This document shows positions 4,402-26,974 of a stretch of 33,115 nt of DNA, piece by piece (the stretch's first letter is position 1; every line of letters begins with the position of its first letter). The stretch comes from Nitrospirota bacterium (GTDB taxonomy: Bacteria > Nitrospirota > Nitrospiria > Nitrospirales > NS-4), in contig VBOO01000019.1 in assembly GCA_005877505.1 (NCBI GenBank), forward strand, positions 1 through 33,115, given 5' to 3'. A program made the position numbers and the translations under genes. A model generated the notes under the pieces. It was not told the origin of the DNA, searched no databases, and saw only the letters and a program-made list of their open reading frames with translations.

Positions 4402-4470
4402 ACCCCTCACCCTAACCCTCTCCATGACCCATTGCATTCAGAAGAGCAATGGGTGCCCCGGGCGAGGGTA
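4402..4470. repeat. Nested palindromic repeat, copy B (ACCCATTGC/GCAATGGGT inside an ACCCTC/GAGGGT stem)
   Basis: ACCCATTGC (4427-4435) pairs with GCAATGGGT (4446-4454); flanking ACCCTC (4415-4420) pairs with GAGGGT (4464-4469). Confidence 0.8.
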
Positions 4471-12500: not shown

Positions 12501-12596
12501 CCCCGACCCGTTGCTGGTGACCCATTGCATCGACCCATTGCATCAGTAGAGCAATGGGTTCCCCGAGCAACGGGTGCCCCGAGCAAGGGGTGCCCC
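12501..12596. repeat. Nested palindromic repeat, copy C (three left and three right modules)
   Basis: Left arms ACCCGTTGC (12506), ACCCATTGC (12520), ACCCATTGC (12533); right arms GCAATGGGT (12551), GCAACGGGT (12567), GCAAGGGGT (12583), with (T/G)CCCCGA spacers. Confidence 0.85.
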
Positions 12597-12655
12597 GTAC
12601 GCGATGGCGCTGCCCTGCGGCGCGTGGTGATGTCGTCGCGCTGGCGTGAAGGGAG

Positions 12656-14214
12656 GTGAACCCCATTCCAGACCTGACCATTGTGATCCTGGCGGTGTTC
12701 GCCGGAGCGGCCCTCGGCGCCGGCCTGCTCCGGCTCATTCAAGGCAAAGTGGTGCCCTCGCGGCTTCGTGAGGCGGAGGATCGCGCGGCCCAGATCGTCC
12801 GGGCGGCCGAGAGAGAGGCCTCCACGCGTGCGCGCGAAGCGCAGCTCGAAGCCAAGGACCTGATCGTCCAGGCGAGGGCCGAGCTCGACAAGGAGTTACA
12901 GGCTCAGCGCAACGAGATCCTCGCGCTGGAAAAGCGGCTAGTCCAGAAAGAAGAGTCCCTGGACCGCCGGATGTCCAATTTCGACCGGCGCGAGTCCGAA
13001 CTCCAGAAACGAGAGAAGACGGTGACGTTCCGGGAGAAGGCGTTGGAGGAAAAAGAGACCGACCTGGCGCGCCTGGTCCAGGAACGCACCAAGGCGCTCG
13101 AATACGCCTCGGGCATGACGGCCGACGAGGCCAAGGCGGCGCTCCTACAGCAGGTGGAGAGCGAGGCCAAGTTCGAGGCCGCCAAGATGATCAAGCGGGT
13201 CCAGGACGAAACCAAGGAGGTTGCCGATCGGGAAGCGAAGGAGATCATCGCCCGGTCCATCCAGCGGATCACGCGGGACTACGTGGCGGAGGCGACGATC
13301 TCGGTGGTGCCGCTCCCGAGCGACGGCATGAAGGGTCGGATCATCGGCCGGGAGGGCCGGAACATCCGGGCGCTGGAAGCCGCGACGGGTATCGACCTGG
13401 TCGTGGACGAAACGCCCGAGGCGGTCCTGATCTCCTGCTTCGATCCGCTTCGCCGGGAAATTGCGAAGGTGTCGCTGGAGCGGCTGATGGCGGACGGCAG
13501 GATCCACCCGACCCGCATCGAAGAGGTGGTCGAGAAGGTCAAGAAAGACCTGGACAAGATGATGCTCGAGGAGGCGGAGAAGGTGCTCTTCGAGCTGGGG
13601 ATCACCAACATCCATCCGGAGATCGTGAAGCTCCTGGGTAAGCTCAAGTTCCGGACGAGCTACGGGCAGAACAACCTCTACCACGCGCGCGAGGCGGCCT
13701 ACATCTGCGGGATCATGGCCTCGGAATTGGAGCTGGATGTCAAGCTCTCACGGCGTGGGGCCCTGATGCATGACATGGGCAAGGCGCTGAGCCAGGAGGA
13801 GGAAGGCCCGCACGCCATCATCGGCGCGGACTTCGCCAAGAAATACGGGGAAACGCCATCGCTGCGCACCACGAGCAGGTCGAGCCGATCTGTCCCGAAA
13901 CGGTGCTGGTGGCGGCCGCAGAATCGCTCTCGGCGGCGCGGCCGGGGGCGCGGCGGGAGACCGTCGAGGCCTACATCAAGCGCCTCGAGAAGCTGGAGAA
14001 GCTGGCCGTAGACTACAAGGGAGTGGAGAAGGCTTATGCCATCCAGGCCGGGCGGGAGATCCGGGTGATCGTGAAGCAGGACACGATCACGGACGCGGAA
14101 TGCGCCGTCCTGTCCCGCGACCTGGCCCGCAAGATCGAGCAGGAGCTGACATATCCCGGCCAGATCAAGGTCACGGTTATCCGCGAAAGTCGTTTTACAG
14201 ACGTCGCGAAGTGA
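12656..14214 (+). pseudogene. rny: Ribonuclease Y, frame-broken near 13852-13855 in the HD domain
   Basis: ORF 12656..14011 carries the TM, coiled coil, KH (MKGRIIGREGRNIRALEAATGIDLVVDETPEAV) and the HD motif ([31 protein letters not shown]). The rest ([11 protein letters not shown]...[29 protein letters not shown]...[10 protein letters not shown]) lies in another frame from 13855 to 14214. Confidence 0.87.
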
Positions 14215-14216
14215 AA

Positions 14217-14261
14217 TCCGGGCAAAGGCTGCGTCTCGGCGCGGCCGGGGCGGGCGGGTGG
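14217..14261 (+). repeat. 45-nt palindromic element, copy at the rny-ymdB junction
   Basis: tccgggcaaaGGCTGCGtctcggCGCGGCCggggcgggcgggtgg; 36/45 identical, ungapped, to the unit at 16709-16753. Confidence 0.8.
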
Positions 14262-16708: not shown

Positions 16709-16798
16709 GCCGGGCAAAGACTCCGTCGTGGCGGAGTCGGGGCGGGCGGGTGAGCCGGGCAAAGACTCCGTCCTGGCGGAGTCGGGGCGGGTGGGTGA
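16709..16798 (+). repeat. Two tandem copies of the 45-nt palindromic element between xseB and tlyA
   Basis: 16709-16753 and 16754-16798, 43/45 identical; each contains GACTCCG-6 nt-CGGAGTC. Confidence 0.92.
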
Positions 16799-16802
16799 GA
16801 AC

Positions 16803-17567
16803 GTGCCAGTCGCGGTCCGGCGTAGAGAGAGGTCGAGGGAGCGGTTGGATCTGGAAATGGTCCGCCGCGGGCTCGTCGAGAGCCGGGAGCGGGCCCAGAG
16901 TCTCATCCTGGCTGGCGTCGTCACTGTGGCAGGCCGTGTCGCCAGCCGGGCTTCGCAACCCATTCTTGCTGACACTTCGATCGAGATCACCGAGCCTGAG
17001 CATCCCTATGTGGGGCGGGGCGGTCTCAAGCTGGCGGCGGCCCTGGACGCGTTCGGTATCAATCCGGAAGGCCTGCTCGCCCTGGATGTGGGCGCCTCAA
17101 CGGGAGGGTTCACGGACTGCCTCTTGCAGCACGGCGCCGCGCGCGTCTATGCGGTGGACGTCGGCTACGGCCAACTGGCCTGGCGCCTCCGGCAAGACCC
17201 GCGTGTGGTCGTAGTGGAACGATGCAACGCGCGGTACCTGGACCGCACGCGGGTGCCTGAGCCCATCGACCTGGCTGCCGTTGACGTGTCCTTCATCTCG
17301 CTCACCCTCGTGCTCCCGGCCGTGCGCCGGTGTCTCAAGGACGAGGGCCAAGTGGTGGCCCTGCTCAAGCCGCAGTTCGAAGTCGGCAAGGGGAAGGTCG
17401 GAAAAGGCGGCATCGTTCGTGATGAAAGTCTGCGGCAAGAGGCGGTCCGGAAGGTCCGCGCTGCCCTGGTCGCGCAGCAGTGGACATGGAGGGGCGAGGT
17501 ACTCTCCCCGATCGCCGGCCATAAGGGAAACGTCGAGTACTTGGTCTGGTTACGGCCTCGCATCTGA
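16803..17567 (+). CDS. tlyA: TlyA family rRNA 2'-O-methyltransferase / hemolysin A-like
   Basis: S4-like RLDLEMVRRGLVESRERAQSLILAGVVTVAG then YVGRGGLKLAAALDAF...ALDVGASTGGFTDCLLQHGAARVYAVDVGYGQL. Start uncertain: GTG 16803 or GTG 16728 inside the repeat. Confidence 0.9.
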   Translation: MPVAVRRRERSRERLDLEMVRRGLVESRERAQSLILAGVVTVAGRVASRASQPILADTSIEITEPEHPYVGRGGLKLAAALDAFGINPEGLLALDVGASTGGFTDCLLQHGAARVYAVDVGYGQLAWRLRQDPRVVVVERCNARYLDRTRVPEPIDLAAVDVSFISLTLVLPAVRRCLKDEGQVVALLKPQFEVGKGKVGKGGIVRDESLRQEAVRKVRAALVAQQWTWRGEVLSPIAGHKGNVEYLVWLRPRI

Positions 17568-19916: not shown

Positions 19917-19996
19917 AATGGGGTCAGAGTCGATTTTTCAAGACAGTTTTGCAAGGCGTCAAAATGGTGAGGAGAAAAATCGACTCTGACCCCATT
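19917..19996. repeat. Perfect 23-bp inverted repeat with 34-nt loop
   Basis: AATGGGGTCAGAGTCGATTTTTC (19917-19939) and GAAAAATCGACTCTGACCCCATT (19974-19996). Confidence 0.95.
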
Positions 19997-22896: not shown

Positions 22897-25137
22897 ATGA
22901 GCGCACCACGTCTCCTCCTCCTGATCCCGCCGCTGACCCAGCTCAACACACCCTATCCTTCCACCGCGTACTTGACCGGATTTCTCAAGCAGCATGGCTA
23001 TGTCACCGGCAAGGCCCCCGTCTCGGCGGGCACGGGGGGGGCGGGTGTAGTGACGCAGGCCGATGTCGGCATCGAGATGGCCCTCGCATTGTTCTCCCGT
23101 GACGGTCTGACGCGCGTCTTCGCCCGGGTCCGTGAGATGCCCGGAGACCTGCCGGGCGAAGCCCAGCAGATGCTGGCGTTGGAGCGGGCCTATCTCGACT
23201 CGATCGACGCCGTGATTGGGTTTCTCCAGGGACAGGATCCGACGCTGGCGCCTCGGATCTGTCAGGGACGCTTCCTCCCGCAAGGCCCCCGGTTTGCCCA
23301 TGCGGACGAGCAGAGCCGCGCCCTTGGAGCGCTCGGCACGACGGACCGCGCCCGGTATCTCGCCACGCTCTACCTGGAGGACTTGGTCGATCTGATTCAT
23401 GAAACCGTGGCGCCCCAGTTCGCGCTCAGCCGCTACGCGGAGCACGTCGGCGTCTCGGCCTCCTCGTTTGATGCGGTGCGGTGCGCCCTCGCCGAGCCGC
23501 CCAGCCTGACGGACGAGATGCTGCTTGAGGCCGTGTGGCGGCACATCGAGGAGGCCGATCCGACCCTCATTGGGCTGACGGTCCCCTTCCCGGGCAACCT
23601 CTTTGGCGCGCTCCGAATCGCCCAGGCCGTGAAAGAGCGGCGGCCTGCCGTGCGAGTCGTGCTCGGTGGCGGTTATGTGAACACGGAGCTGCGCCGGCTT
23701 CTGGAGCCGCGTCTGTTCGACTACGTGGACTACGTGTCGCTGGATGACGGTGAGCGGCCACTGCTCTGTCTCCTGGAGCACCTCGCCGGCAAACGCGACG
23801 AGGTTGAGTTGCGGCGGACCTTTCTGCGATCGGAGGGGCGTGTCGTGTGGCGGGACGGCGCTCGCGAACCCGAATTCGGCATGGCCGAGATCGGCGCGCC
23901 GACCTACGCCGGGCTGGCGCTGGACCGGTATCTCTCCGTGCTTGACACGCTGAACCCCATGCACCGTCTGTGGTCGGACGGGCACTGGAACAAGCTGACG
24001 GTGGCGCACGGGTGCTATTGGAAGCAGTGCACCTTCTGTGATGTGGGCCTGGACTACATCGGCCGGTACGAGGCCATGCCGAGCGAAATCTTGACCGATC
24101 GCATCGAGGCGCTCATCGCCGAAACGGGGCGGCGGGGGTTCCACTTCGTGGATGAGGCGGCGCCACCGGCGGGGCTCAAGGAGCTGGCGTTGATCCTGCT
24201 GGAACGGGGCGTGACGATCACGTGGTGGGGGAACATCCGCTTCGAGCAGGCTTTCACGCGGGACCGCTGCCGCCTGCTCGCCGCGTCTGGGTGCGTCGCC
24301 GTCACGGCCGGACTCGAAGCGGCCTCCGACCGGCTCCTTGACGTCATGAAGAAGGGGATCACCGTGGCCCAGGCCGCGCGCGTGGCGGCGTCGTTCCAGG
24401 CTGGAGGGATCATGGTGCACGCCTATCTCATGTACGGATTACCGGGCGAATCCATCGGAGAGACCGTGGAGGCGCTTGAGCGCGTGCGCCAACTATTCGC
24501 GCACGGTCTGATCCAATCGGCGTTCTGGCACCGGTTCGTGGCGACCGCTCACAGCCCGATCGGGTTGGACCCGACAGCCCATGGCATCCGCATCACGGGG
24601 CCGGCGTTCGGCGGCTTTGCGGAGAATGATCTCAGCCACGACGATCCCGCGGGGGAAGCGCCGGAGTGGCTCGGCGTCGGATTGAGAGCGGCTCTCTCCT
24701 CGTACATGCGTGGGGAGGCATTGACGGACGATGTTCGGCAATGGTTCGACCATTCGGTCCCCCGACCAAAGGTGCCGCGTCATTGGGTTGCTCGGGTGCT
24801 GGAGGAGATGCCGGTCCACGATGATCCGGCAGCAGAACGTCGGTTCGTCTGGATCGGGGGGACGCCGGTGAGCGAATCGTGCAGGCATGACCGGCGTCGA
24901 GTGATCCTTCCCAATCAGGTCGAAGACGTCGAGGTGCGACTCTCTGCTGAGAAGGCAGACTGGCTGCTGGACCTCATCCGATCCGCGACGCCCTTACGGG
25001 AGAAGCGAGGCGAAGGATACCCCTCGCTCAGGGAAGTCCGCGAGACGTATCCGCTGGGCGGGCCGCGCGGGTTCGACGCGCTGGTCAGGTCAGCCTTGTG
25101 GCGACAGGCTCGGACCGGCGGGTTGCTCCTGGTCTGA
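22897..25137 (+). CDS. B12-binding-domain-type radical SAM protein
   Basis: Rossmann-like LIGLTVPFPGNLFGALRIAQAVKERRPAVRVVLGGGYVNTEL and cluster region GCYWKQCTFCDVGLDYIGRYE, then LEAASDRLLDVMKKGIT...YLMYGLPGES. Confidence 0.9.
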   Translation: MSAPRLLLLIPPLTQLNTPYPSTAYLTGFLKQHGYVTGKAPVSAGTGGAGVVTQADVGIEMALALFSRDGLTRVFARVREMPGDLPGEAQQMLALERAYLDSIDAVIGFLQGQDPTLAPRICQGRFLPQGPRFAHADEQSRALGALGTTDRARYLATLYLEDLVDLIHETVAPQFALSRYAEHVGVSASSFDAVRCALAEPPSLTDEMLLEAVWRHIEEADPTLIGLTVPFPGNLFGALRIAQAVKERRPAVRVVLGGGYVNTELRRLLEPRLFDYVDYVSLDDGERPLLCLLEHLAGKRDEVELRRTFLRSEGRVVWRDGAREPEFGMAEIGAPTYAGLALDRYLSVLDTLNPMHRLWSDGHWNKLTVAHGCYWKQCTFCDVGLDYIGRYEAMPSEILTDRIEALIAETGRRGFHFVDEAAPPAGLKELALILLERGVTITWWGNIRFEQAFTRDRCRLLAASGCVAVTAGLEAASDRLLDVMKKGITVAQAARVAASFQAGGIMVHAYLMYGLPGESIGETVEALERVRQLFAHGLIQSAFWHRFVATAHSPIGLDPTAHGIRITGPAFGGFAENDLSHDDPAGEAPEWLGVGLRAALSSYMRGEALTDDVRQWFDHSVPRPKVPRHWVARVLEEMPVHDDPAAERRFVWIGGTPVSESCRHDRRRVILPNQVEDVEVRLSAEKADWLLDLIRSATPLREKRGEGYPSLREVRETYPLGGPRGFDALVRSALWRQARTGGLLLV
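23005..23049 (+). repeat. 45-nt palindromic element apparently inserted in frame within the radical SAM CDS
   Basis: accggcaaggcccccgtctcggcgggcacggggggggcgggtgta encodes TGKAPVSAGTGGAGV; aligns with the other copies with short gaps; loop TCTCGG identical to the 14217 copy. Confidence 0.65.
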
Positions 25138-25903: not shown

Positions 25904-26974
25904 TCACGATCTTTGCTTGCTTCTGATAGTCTTTGCCCGCGCCGCGAGTTGTTCCGCCTCGTCCGGGCGACGCATCGCCCGTAGCAATGCCGCATAGTTC
26001 TCCAGGGTATCAGCCACCGTGGGATGCTCTGGTCCCAGGCTCTTCTCCCGGATCGCCAGCGCGCGCGTGAAGAGGGATTGCGCTTCGCCGTATCTCCCCT
26101 CGTGGTTATAGAGGATCGCCAGGTTGTTCAGGCTCGTCGCCACGTCCGGGTGCTCAGGCCCTAGACGTGTCTCGCGGATCGCCAGGGCGCGCTGATGCAG
26201 AGGCTCCGCCGAGTGGTACCACCCCAGGACGAAATAGAGGTTTGCGAGGTTGTTCAGGCTGACAGCCACATCCGGATGCTCCGGCCCGAGGCGTTTCTCG
26301 CGGATTGCGAGTGTGCGCCTGTAGAGAGCTTCGGCCTCTGCATACCGCTTTTGGGTCTTGTAGAGCACCGCCACGTTGTTCAGGGTCTCGGCCACGTCCA
26401 GGTGCTCGAGGCCGAGGGCCTTTTCTTGGATGGCAAGCGCCCGCGCGTACAGGCGTTCCGCCAGGTCATACTTCCCCTGGCTTTTGTACAGGATGGCTAG
26501 GTTGTTCAGGGTGTCGGCCACCTCCGGATGGTCCAGGCCGTGAGTTTTTTCCTGGATGGCGAGCGCCTGCGTGTAGAGACGCGCCGCCGCCTCATACTGC
26601 CCATGGTTGTCATGCAGGGTCGCCCAGCTCTTCAGGGTCTCGGCGACGGCCGGATGCTCCCGCCCCAACAGGCGCTCTTGGACGGCGAGCGCCCGTCTGA
26701 AGAGGCGCTCCGACGCCTCGGGCTTCCCTTCTGCAAGGTAGAGTTCCGCCAGTGCGGCAATACTGTCGGCCACACGTGCGCCCGGGGCGCCGGCCGCCTC
26801 CTTGAGGGCGGCGACATAATGCTGTTCCGCTTCATCGAAGTGGTGTTCCTTCACGGCTCGCTTGCCGCTGTCCACGTGCCACTCCGAGAGCAACCCATTC
26901 TGCGCGCGCGCATCCAAGACCAAGAACAACAACACGCAGGCGCCCACGATGGCTGTCAGTCTTTTGTCTCTCAC
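25904..26974 (-). CDS. Tetratricopeptide repeat protein (kinesin light chain-like 42-residue repeats) with signal peptide
   Basis: Repeated LGPEHPDVAxSLNNLAxLYxxxGRYxEAExLxxRALAIREK units. Confidence 0.92.
   Translation of the reverse strand: MRDKRLTAIVGACVLLFLVLDARAQNGLLSEWHVDSGKRAVKEHHFDEAEQHYVAALKEAAGAPGARVADSIAALAELYLAEGKPEASERLFRRALAVQERLLGREHPAVAETLKSWATLHDNHGQYEAAARLYTQALAIQEKTHGLDHPEVADTLNNLAILYKSQGKYDLAERLYARALAIQEKALGLEHLDVAETLNNVAVLYKTQKRYAEAEALYRRTLAIREKRLGPEHPDVAVSLNNLANLYFVLGWYHSAEPLHQRALAIRETRLGPEHPDVATSLNNLAILYNHEGRYGEAQSLFTRALAIREKSLGPEHPTVADTLENYAALLRAMRRPDEAEQLAARAKTIRSKQRS

Follow-up and report, generated by a model that had tools for sequence, protein, structure and literature searches.

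Protein-coding palindromes were at first deemed a peculiarity of Rickettsia and were later found in a few tagged REP families. Rickettsia palindromic elements (RPEs) are repeats of 100–150 bp in Rickettsia and Wolbachia (PMC3767692, PMC10969869), and those of R. conorii have been reported with CGTC at their end (PMC3733652). Tagged REPs, with GTAG/GTGG or CGTC ends, are hairpins of 20–40 bp that occur singly, as dimers or in clusters; some are intragenic, with uvrA and dnaE among the published targets (PMC3733652). In-frame intragenic REPs are known outside Rickettsia, for example in Opitutus terrae and Thauera (PMC3733652), and MITEs or TIR-flanked Y1 miniatures can fuse in frame with genes (PMC10969869). 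Here, we describe an untagged family in free-living Nitrospirota, to which a 45-nt insertion in a radical SAM gene belongs.

The element resembles RPEs in several respects. Both are short palindromic repeats found between genes and in frame in unrelated, often housekeeping genes, both encode residues in exposed regions, and no transposase is known for either. In-frame palindromes inside unrelated genes are seen here with empty sites for the radical SAM protein, UvrA, RimO and an MBL-fold protein. A reading made earlier from the sequence only had drawn the comparison with RPEs, and the further in-frame copies inside genes show it to be right as an analogy. In contrast, RPEs are longer than the 45-bp unit observed here, which only composites of nested copies exceed. 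The terminal CGTC of R. conorii RPEs is absent, since the element runs from C-GGG to GGGTG-NRA and has CGTC only at the stem–loop boundary. The hosts also differ, Rickettsiales lying outside our search, and, unlike RPEs, the element is GC-rich with variable, covarying stems and fixed G-rich ends.

With tagged REPs the element shares short hairpins and intragenic copies, including hits in uvrA and dnaE. However, the stem of a tagged REP family is a consensus sequence, whereas here the arms vary with compensation and the loop and tail are fixed. Like MITEs and TIR-flanked Y1 miniatures, the element is non-autonomous and repeated, but MITEs have terminal inverted repeats and its own inverted repeat is internal. 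Since tested traits of both RPEs and tagged REPs fail here, we regard the element as working like both and file it as a member of neither. In-frame intragenic REPs have already been published (PMC3733652), so the phenomenon itself is not new; the family, with its fixed 45-bp unit and variable stem, appears to be new within the literature searched. In agreement with the sequence-only reading, which saw no named match, Rfam gives no matches in the window (the whole analysed stretch of 33,115 nt) at the gathering threshold. We interpret the 45 nt as one copy of a new non-autonomous REP/RPE-like family of mobile hairpins that has spread across the order, with a probability of roughly 0.88.

Table 1. 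Copies of the repeat and the interrupted gene in the window
Feature	Position	Strand	Evidence
Intergenic copy, 41-nt core, between the rny 3' end and the TIGR00282 metallophosphoesterase gene	14220..14260	+	R1 61.0 bits; NCBIfam neighbours
First core of intergenic tandem pair upstream of tlyA	16712..16752	+	R1 59.0 bits; TRF period 45
Second core of this pair, offset from the first by exactly 45 nt	16757..16797	+	R1 60.6 bits; followed by tlyA at 16803
Interrupted gene, encoding a radical SAM / B12-binding protein of 746 aa	22897..25137	+	ORF and translation; Pfam
45-nt element, in frame, degenerate copy, translated as TGKAPVSAGTGGAGV	23005..23049	+	Orthologue absence; model R1; 35/41 identity
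Left stem arm GCCCCCG of the radical SAM copy	23014..23020	+	Columns 8-14 of model R1, match 23007-23047
Right stem arm CGGGCAC of the radical SAM copy, 5/7 pairs kept	23027..23033	+	Columns 21-27 of model R1

The insertion in the radical SAM gene

The ORF product matches Radical_SAM (E 4.2e-13) and B12-binding (E 1.2e-8) in Pfam. A scan for orthologues, limited to a single genome for each species, retained 80 related loci, of which 79 have an alignable N-terminus. All 79, from Nitrospirota to Bacteroidota, lack the 15 residues, which makes the insertion specific to this lineage; without the insert, the helix runs directly into QADVG, QADLG or a similar segment. The two nearest orthologues (~88% identical) show a clean empty site at the nucleotide level, with GGCTCTGAC joined to GTGACGCAG in L031 and GGCTATAGC joined to GTGACGCAG in L079. 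The proposal of a 45-nt in-frame addition, whose removal would restore a natural segment, is thereby borne out. The junctions are ambiguous by 1–2 nt (23005-23049 or 23006-23050), with a net length of 45 both ways. In the sibling NS_1, the start of this radical SAM gene is closely preceded by a tandem pair with two different stems (L031:3851-3936).

Against a covariance model built without it, the radical SAM copy scores 33.8 bits, with E-values of 8.7e-5 in the genome and 2.8e-6 in a set of nine sources. Its 41-nt core is identical to that of one family member at 35 of 41 positions, compared with 28 of 41 for the best of 65,408 other window positions. The pairing of its stem is the one on which the sequence-only reading had called the copy degenerate. 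Model R1, derived from an ungapped, 41-column alignment of 72 copies with the radical SAM copy left out (A1), picks up 28 matches across this genome at E<1. Of these, 24 are confident, with E-values no higher than 8.7e-5, and the radical SAM copy ranks last among them. The three other window copies are all intergenic, and the tandem elements before tlyA, seen earlier as akin to the radical SAM copy, match R1 and belong to the same family.

The follow-ups proposed in the sequence-only reading give concordant answers: no close orthologue aligned carries the 15 residues, a covariance-model search of the genome finds many further copies, several in frame inside genes, and the predicted structure places the insert in a helix–strand loop. 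This structure (mean pLDDT 85, pTM 0.87) has the loop in the N-terminal domain, between the first helix (residues 21–32) and the strand at 51–56, with pLDDT below 50 at residues 42–46. The model would fit an exposed, tolerated loop, and the low pLDDT may merely reflect that zero aligned sequences cover the insert.

The repeat unit, its stem and its spread

The 45-bp consensus, C-GGGAAAAG-stem-TCYYGG-stem'-GGGGYGGGYGGGTG-NRA, comprises a C-GGGAAAAG head, a 7-bp stem enclosing a TCYYGG loop, the G-rich tail GGGGYGGGYGGGTG and a final NRA. Conservation extends beyond the 41-nt core, with C before GGG in 71% of copies and NRA after GGGTG carrying its A in 92%, which brings the unit to 45 nt. Each of the seven tandem pairs examined has a spacing of exactly 45 nt, and three of them pair unlike stems, so tandems are not only local duplications. 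In-frame copies agree with the earlier suggestion that a codon-multiple length is tolerated in proteins, but intergenic tandems share this length and have period 45; the codon-multiple length is therefore a property of the element itself rather than a product of selection inside genes. Composite copies contain a second hairpin inside the loop of the first.

The seven-pair stem is paired in 96.8% of cells, against 68.9% after shuffling. Its covariation is 0.717, compared with 0.198 in shuffles and at most 0.146 for slid pairings, and double changes occupy 133 cells versus 39.6 in shuffles (counts uncorrected for relatedness). The 112 copies include dozens of different left arms, with loop and tail fixed, so one inherited change cannot explain the paired changes. 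Covarying arms together with a fixed loop and tail imply that something reads the folded hairpin and its ends. Paired changes could also arise without selection, through templated correction of one arm of a quasi-palindrome by the other. Single-strand folding energy is ordinary for the composition (z of -0.9 to -1.5 versus shuffles).

The family is spread in the order that holds the source genome, with matches in two of its families, including Nitrospira. Copies occur in genus mates and family mates, ten related genomes holding 8–71 each. A pattern search of 40 genomes finds them in this genome and its relatives, and the reversed-pattern control is zero in 40 of 40. A sample of 246 genomes of the phylum yields 42 with matches at 1e-6, every one of them belonging to the order of the window; Nitrospira defluvii NOB1 has 2 matches and Nitrospira sp. 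RSF11 has 19. No copies are found in 13 Bacteroidota or one Myxococcales-labelled genome, the taxon labels being those of the record titles, and viral contigs give no exact match to the strict pattern.

A short palindromic unit, limited to an order, with tandems, composites and intragenic copies as for published REPs (PMC3733652), would also suit a REP of the known superfamilies moved by a REP-associated tyrosine transposase, and some relatives do have Y1 genes. We consider this improbable, since the tags are lacking: in alignment A1 and the flank profile, GTAG/GTGG is absent 0–2 nt 5' of the stem on either strand, where GGGAAA and, on the other strand, CCCGCCCC are found, and there is no terminal CGTC. 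A search of 13 genomes for a linked Y1 transposase (PF01797) gives matches in six, and no confident copy adjoins any of them; the six loci searched with R1 yield a single match at E 0.48. Y1 genes are not detected in several copy-bearing genomes, including the copy-rich G004 (71% complete). The flank profile resolves no target-site consensus, and the consensus has no terminal inverted repeat; no target duplication is visible, with junctions ambiguous by 1–2 nt. Under the mobile-hairpin reading, the folded hairpin and its fixed ends would be recognised by an enzyme supplied in trans, which is the most likely mode of mobilisation. Whether such an enzyme reads the structure of the hairpin rather than its sequence is a testable question.

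It seems less probable still that the repeat is a terminator-like hairpin or regulatory RNA under selection in intergenic positions, its in-gene copies being accidents of spread. Several copies do lie directly behind a gene and ahead of its same-strand neighbour (rny, xseB–tlyA), and the reverse strand of the element reads as a GC hairpin followed by TTTT. However, orientation relative to genes varies, the T run exists on one strand only, and several copies sit inside genes in reverse orientation; the covariation shows that the hairpin matters, not that it acts as RNA.

Copies inside genes

Besides the radical SAM gene, this genome carries copies in UvrA, an efflux adaptor and an MBL-fold protein. 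Others lie in reverse orientation in the N-terminal linker of citrate synthase and the TRAM domain of RimO, as a composite in RibH, and within a larger repeat insertion in YggS. In relatives, copies are found in citrate synthase, a homoserine dehydrogenase-like protein, M20 and M28 peptidases, an FtsX-like permease, Era, DnaE and YbeY. NCBIfam assigns eight copy-bearing proteins (RibH, YggS, RimO, citrate synthase, Era, DnaE, YbeY and UvrA) to their families; since fragments were submitted, the UvrA and some DnaE models do not reach the full-length cut-off. The remaining names are read from the sequence. Sorting of the 112 copies into coding and intergenic by codon bias is crude, having missed the radical SAM, RimO and adaptor copies; it served to pick candidates only. 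Genome-wide in-gene fractions are lower bounds.

Comparison with empty relatives gives a length of exactly 45 nt for the UvrA and MBL inserts, and the RimO insert aligns as 45 nt within a divergent loop. The citrate synthases of siblings are mutual empty sites, with the element in the N-terminal linker here and in the middle of the protein in G001. In M20 peptidases of two genera the element occupies nearly the same loop, their siblings being empty, and a relative's UvrA holds a short remnant at the insertion site seen in this genome. From these sequences, the M20 and UvrA patterns may mean that permissive loops have been hit repeatedly or that the element has been lost several times. The RimO of G006 (L213) has a different palindrome, GGGGGGACAGATTTGAAATCTGTCCCCC, at the loop that holds the 45-nt element in this genome, which would make this loop a permissive site struck by two repeat families. 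Filled and empty sites in siblings make the tolerance of 15 extra residues by Era, DnaE, UvrA and RimO directly testable.

Five of the six frames of the unit consensus are free of stops, and the sixth is closed when GGTGA brings TGA into frame. The sequence-only reading had noted a reading frame shared by the radical SAM copy and the tandem elements; their membership of one 45-nt family stands, but the element is not bound to one frame. Copies inside genes are read in each of the three forward frames and in at least two of the reverse ones, and the peptides that result in unrelated proteins include TGKxxVSAxxGRAGx, xxGARLGAPGAGGC, xxGASWRxxGGRV, xTRPPQARQDAPLP and HPPTPSLSEQAPFH. With at least five of six frames in use, it is a DNA element that moves and not a protein module. 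It is thus very improbable that recombination between proteins has spread the 15 residues as a functional peptide or linker, with the DNA repeat incidental. The peptide TGKxxVSAxxGRAGx is common to the radical SAM protein, UvrA, efflux adaptors and one citrate synthase, but other in-gene copies are translated in four or more further frames, some of them reverse (RimO, M20 peptidase, DnaE), with unrelated peptides; many copies are intergenic, and the DNA ends and pairing are conserved while the codons are not. An assembly or sequencing artefact at the radical SAM site can hardly be credited: the source is a fragmented draft MAG (316 contigs, 87% complete; genomes of the genus are likewise draft MAGs) with an apparent frameshift in the nearby rny, but independent in-gene copies in several genomes have intact flanking frames and clean empty sites in relatives.

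As a mobile hairpin, the element would insert new copies beside older ones, in intergenic DNA and within genes. Insertion into a surface loop would lengthen the protein by 15 residues instead of knocking it out, and such insertions would be survivable because the unit is 15 codons long and nearly stop-free. An in-gene copy would afterwards decay by point mutation; the radical SAM copy has lost two pairs and kept its reading frame. The in-gene copies are most likely tolerated passengers without benefit. A bolder version is possible, if on the unlikely side: the 15-codon length and near stop-free unit would have been selected for harmless insertion into genes, the enzyme would be neither Y1/RAYT nor a known DDE, and free-living hosts would continually add exposed peptides to conserved, including essential, proteins.

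Other features of the window

In rny (RNase Y), the ORF that begins at 12656 breaks frame, and the C-terminus is encoded in another frame up to 14214 (13799-14214); the NCBIfam RNase Y match is split across the two. This break is either a frameshift or a small deletion, real or from assembly. A perfect 23-bp inverted repeat, AATGGGGTCAGAGTCGATTTTTC, at 19917-19939 and 19974-19996 with 34 nt between its arms, resembles a miniature of a TIR-flanked Y1 element.

A second repeat family, built of GAGCAACGGGTGCCCC units, is found at 161-211, 4438-4468 and 12532-12598, and also in L254. A similar sequence has apparently added ~19 residues in frame to the citrate synthase of G001, and a hairpin related to this family is nested in the loop of composite copies of the 45-bp repeat. 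Finally, a 126-nt unit (42 codons) is repeated in tandem at least six times at 25997-26714; the units are 60–75% alike and look like protein repeats encoded on the reverse strand.
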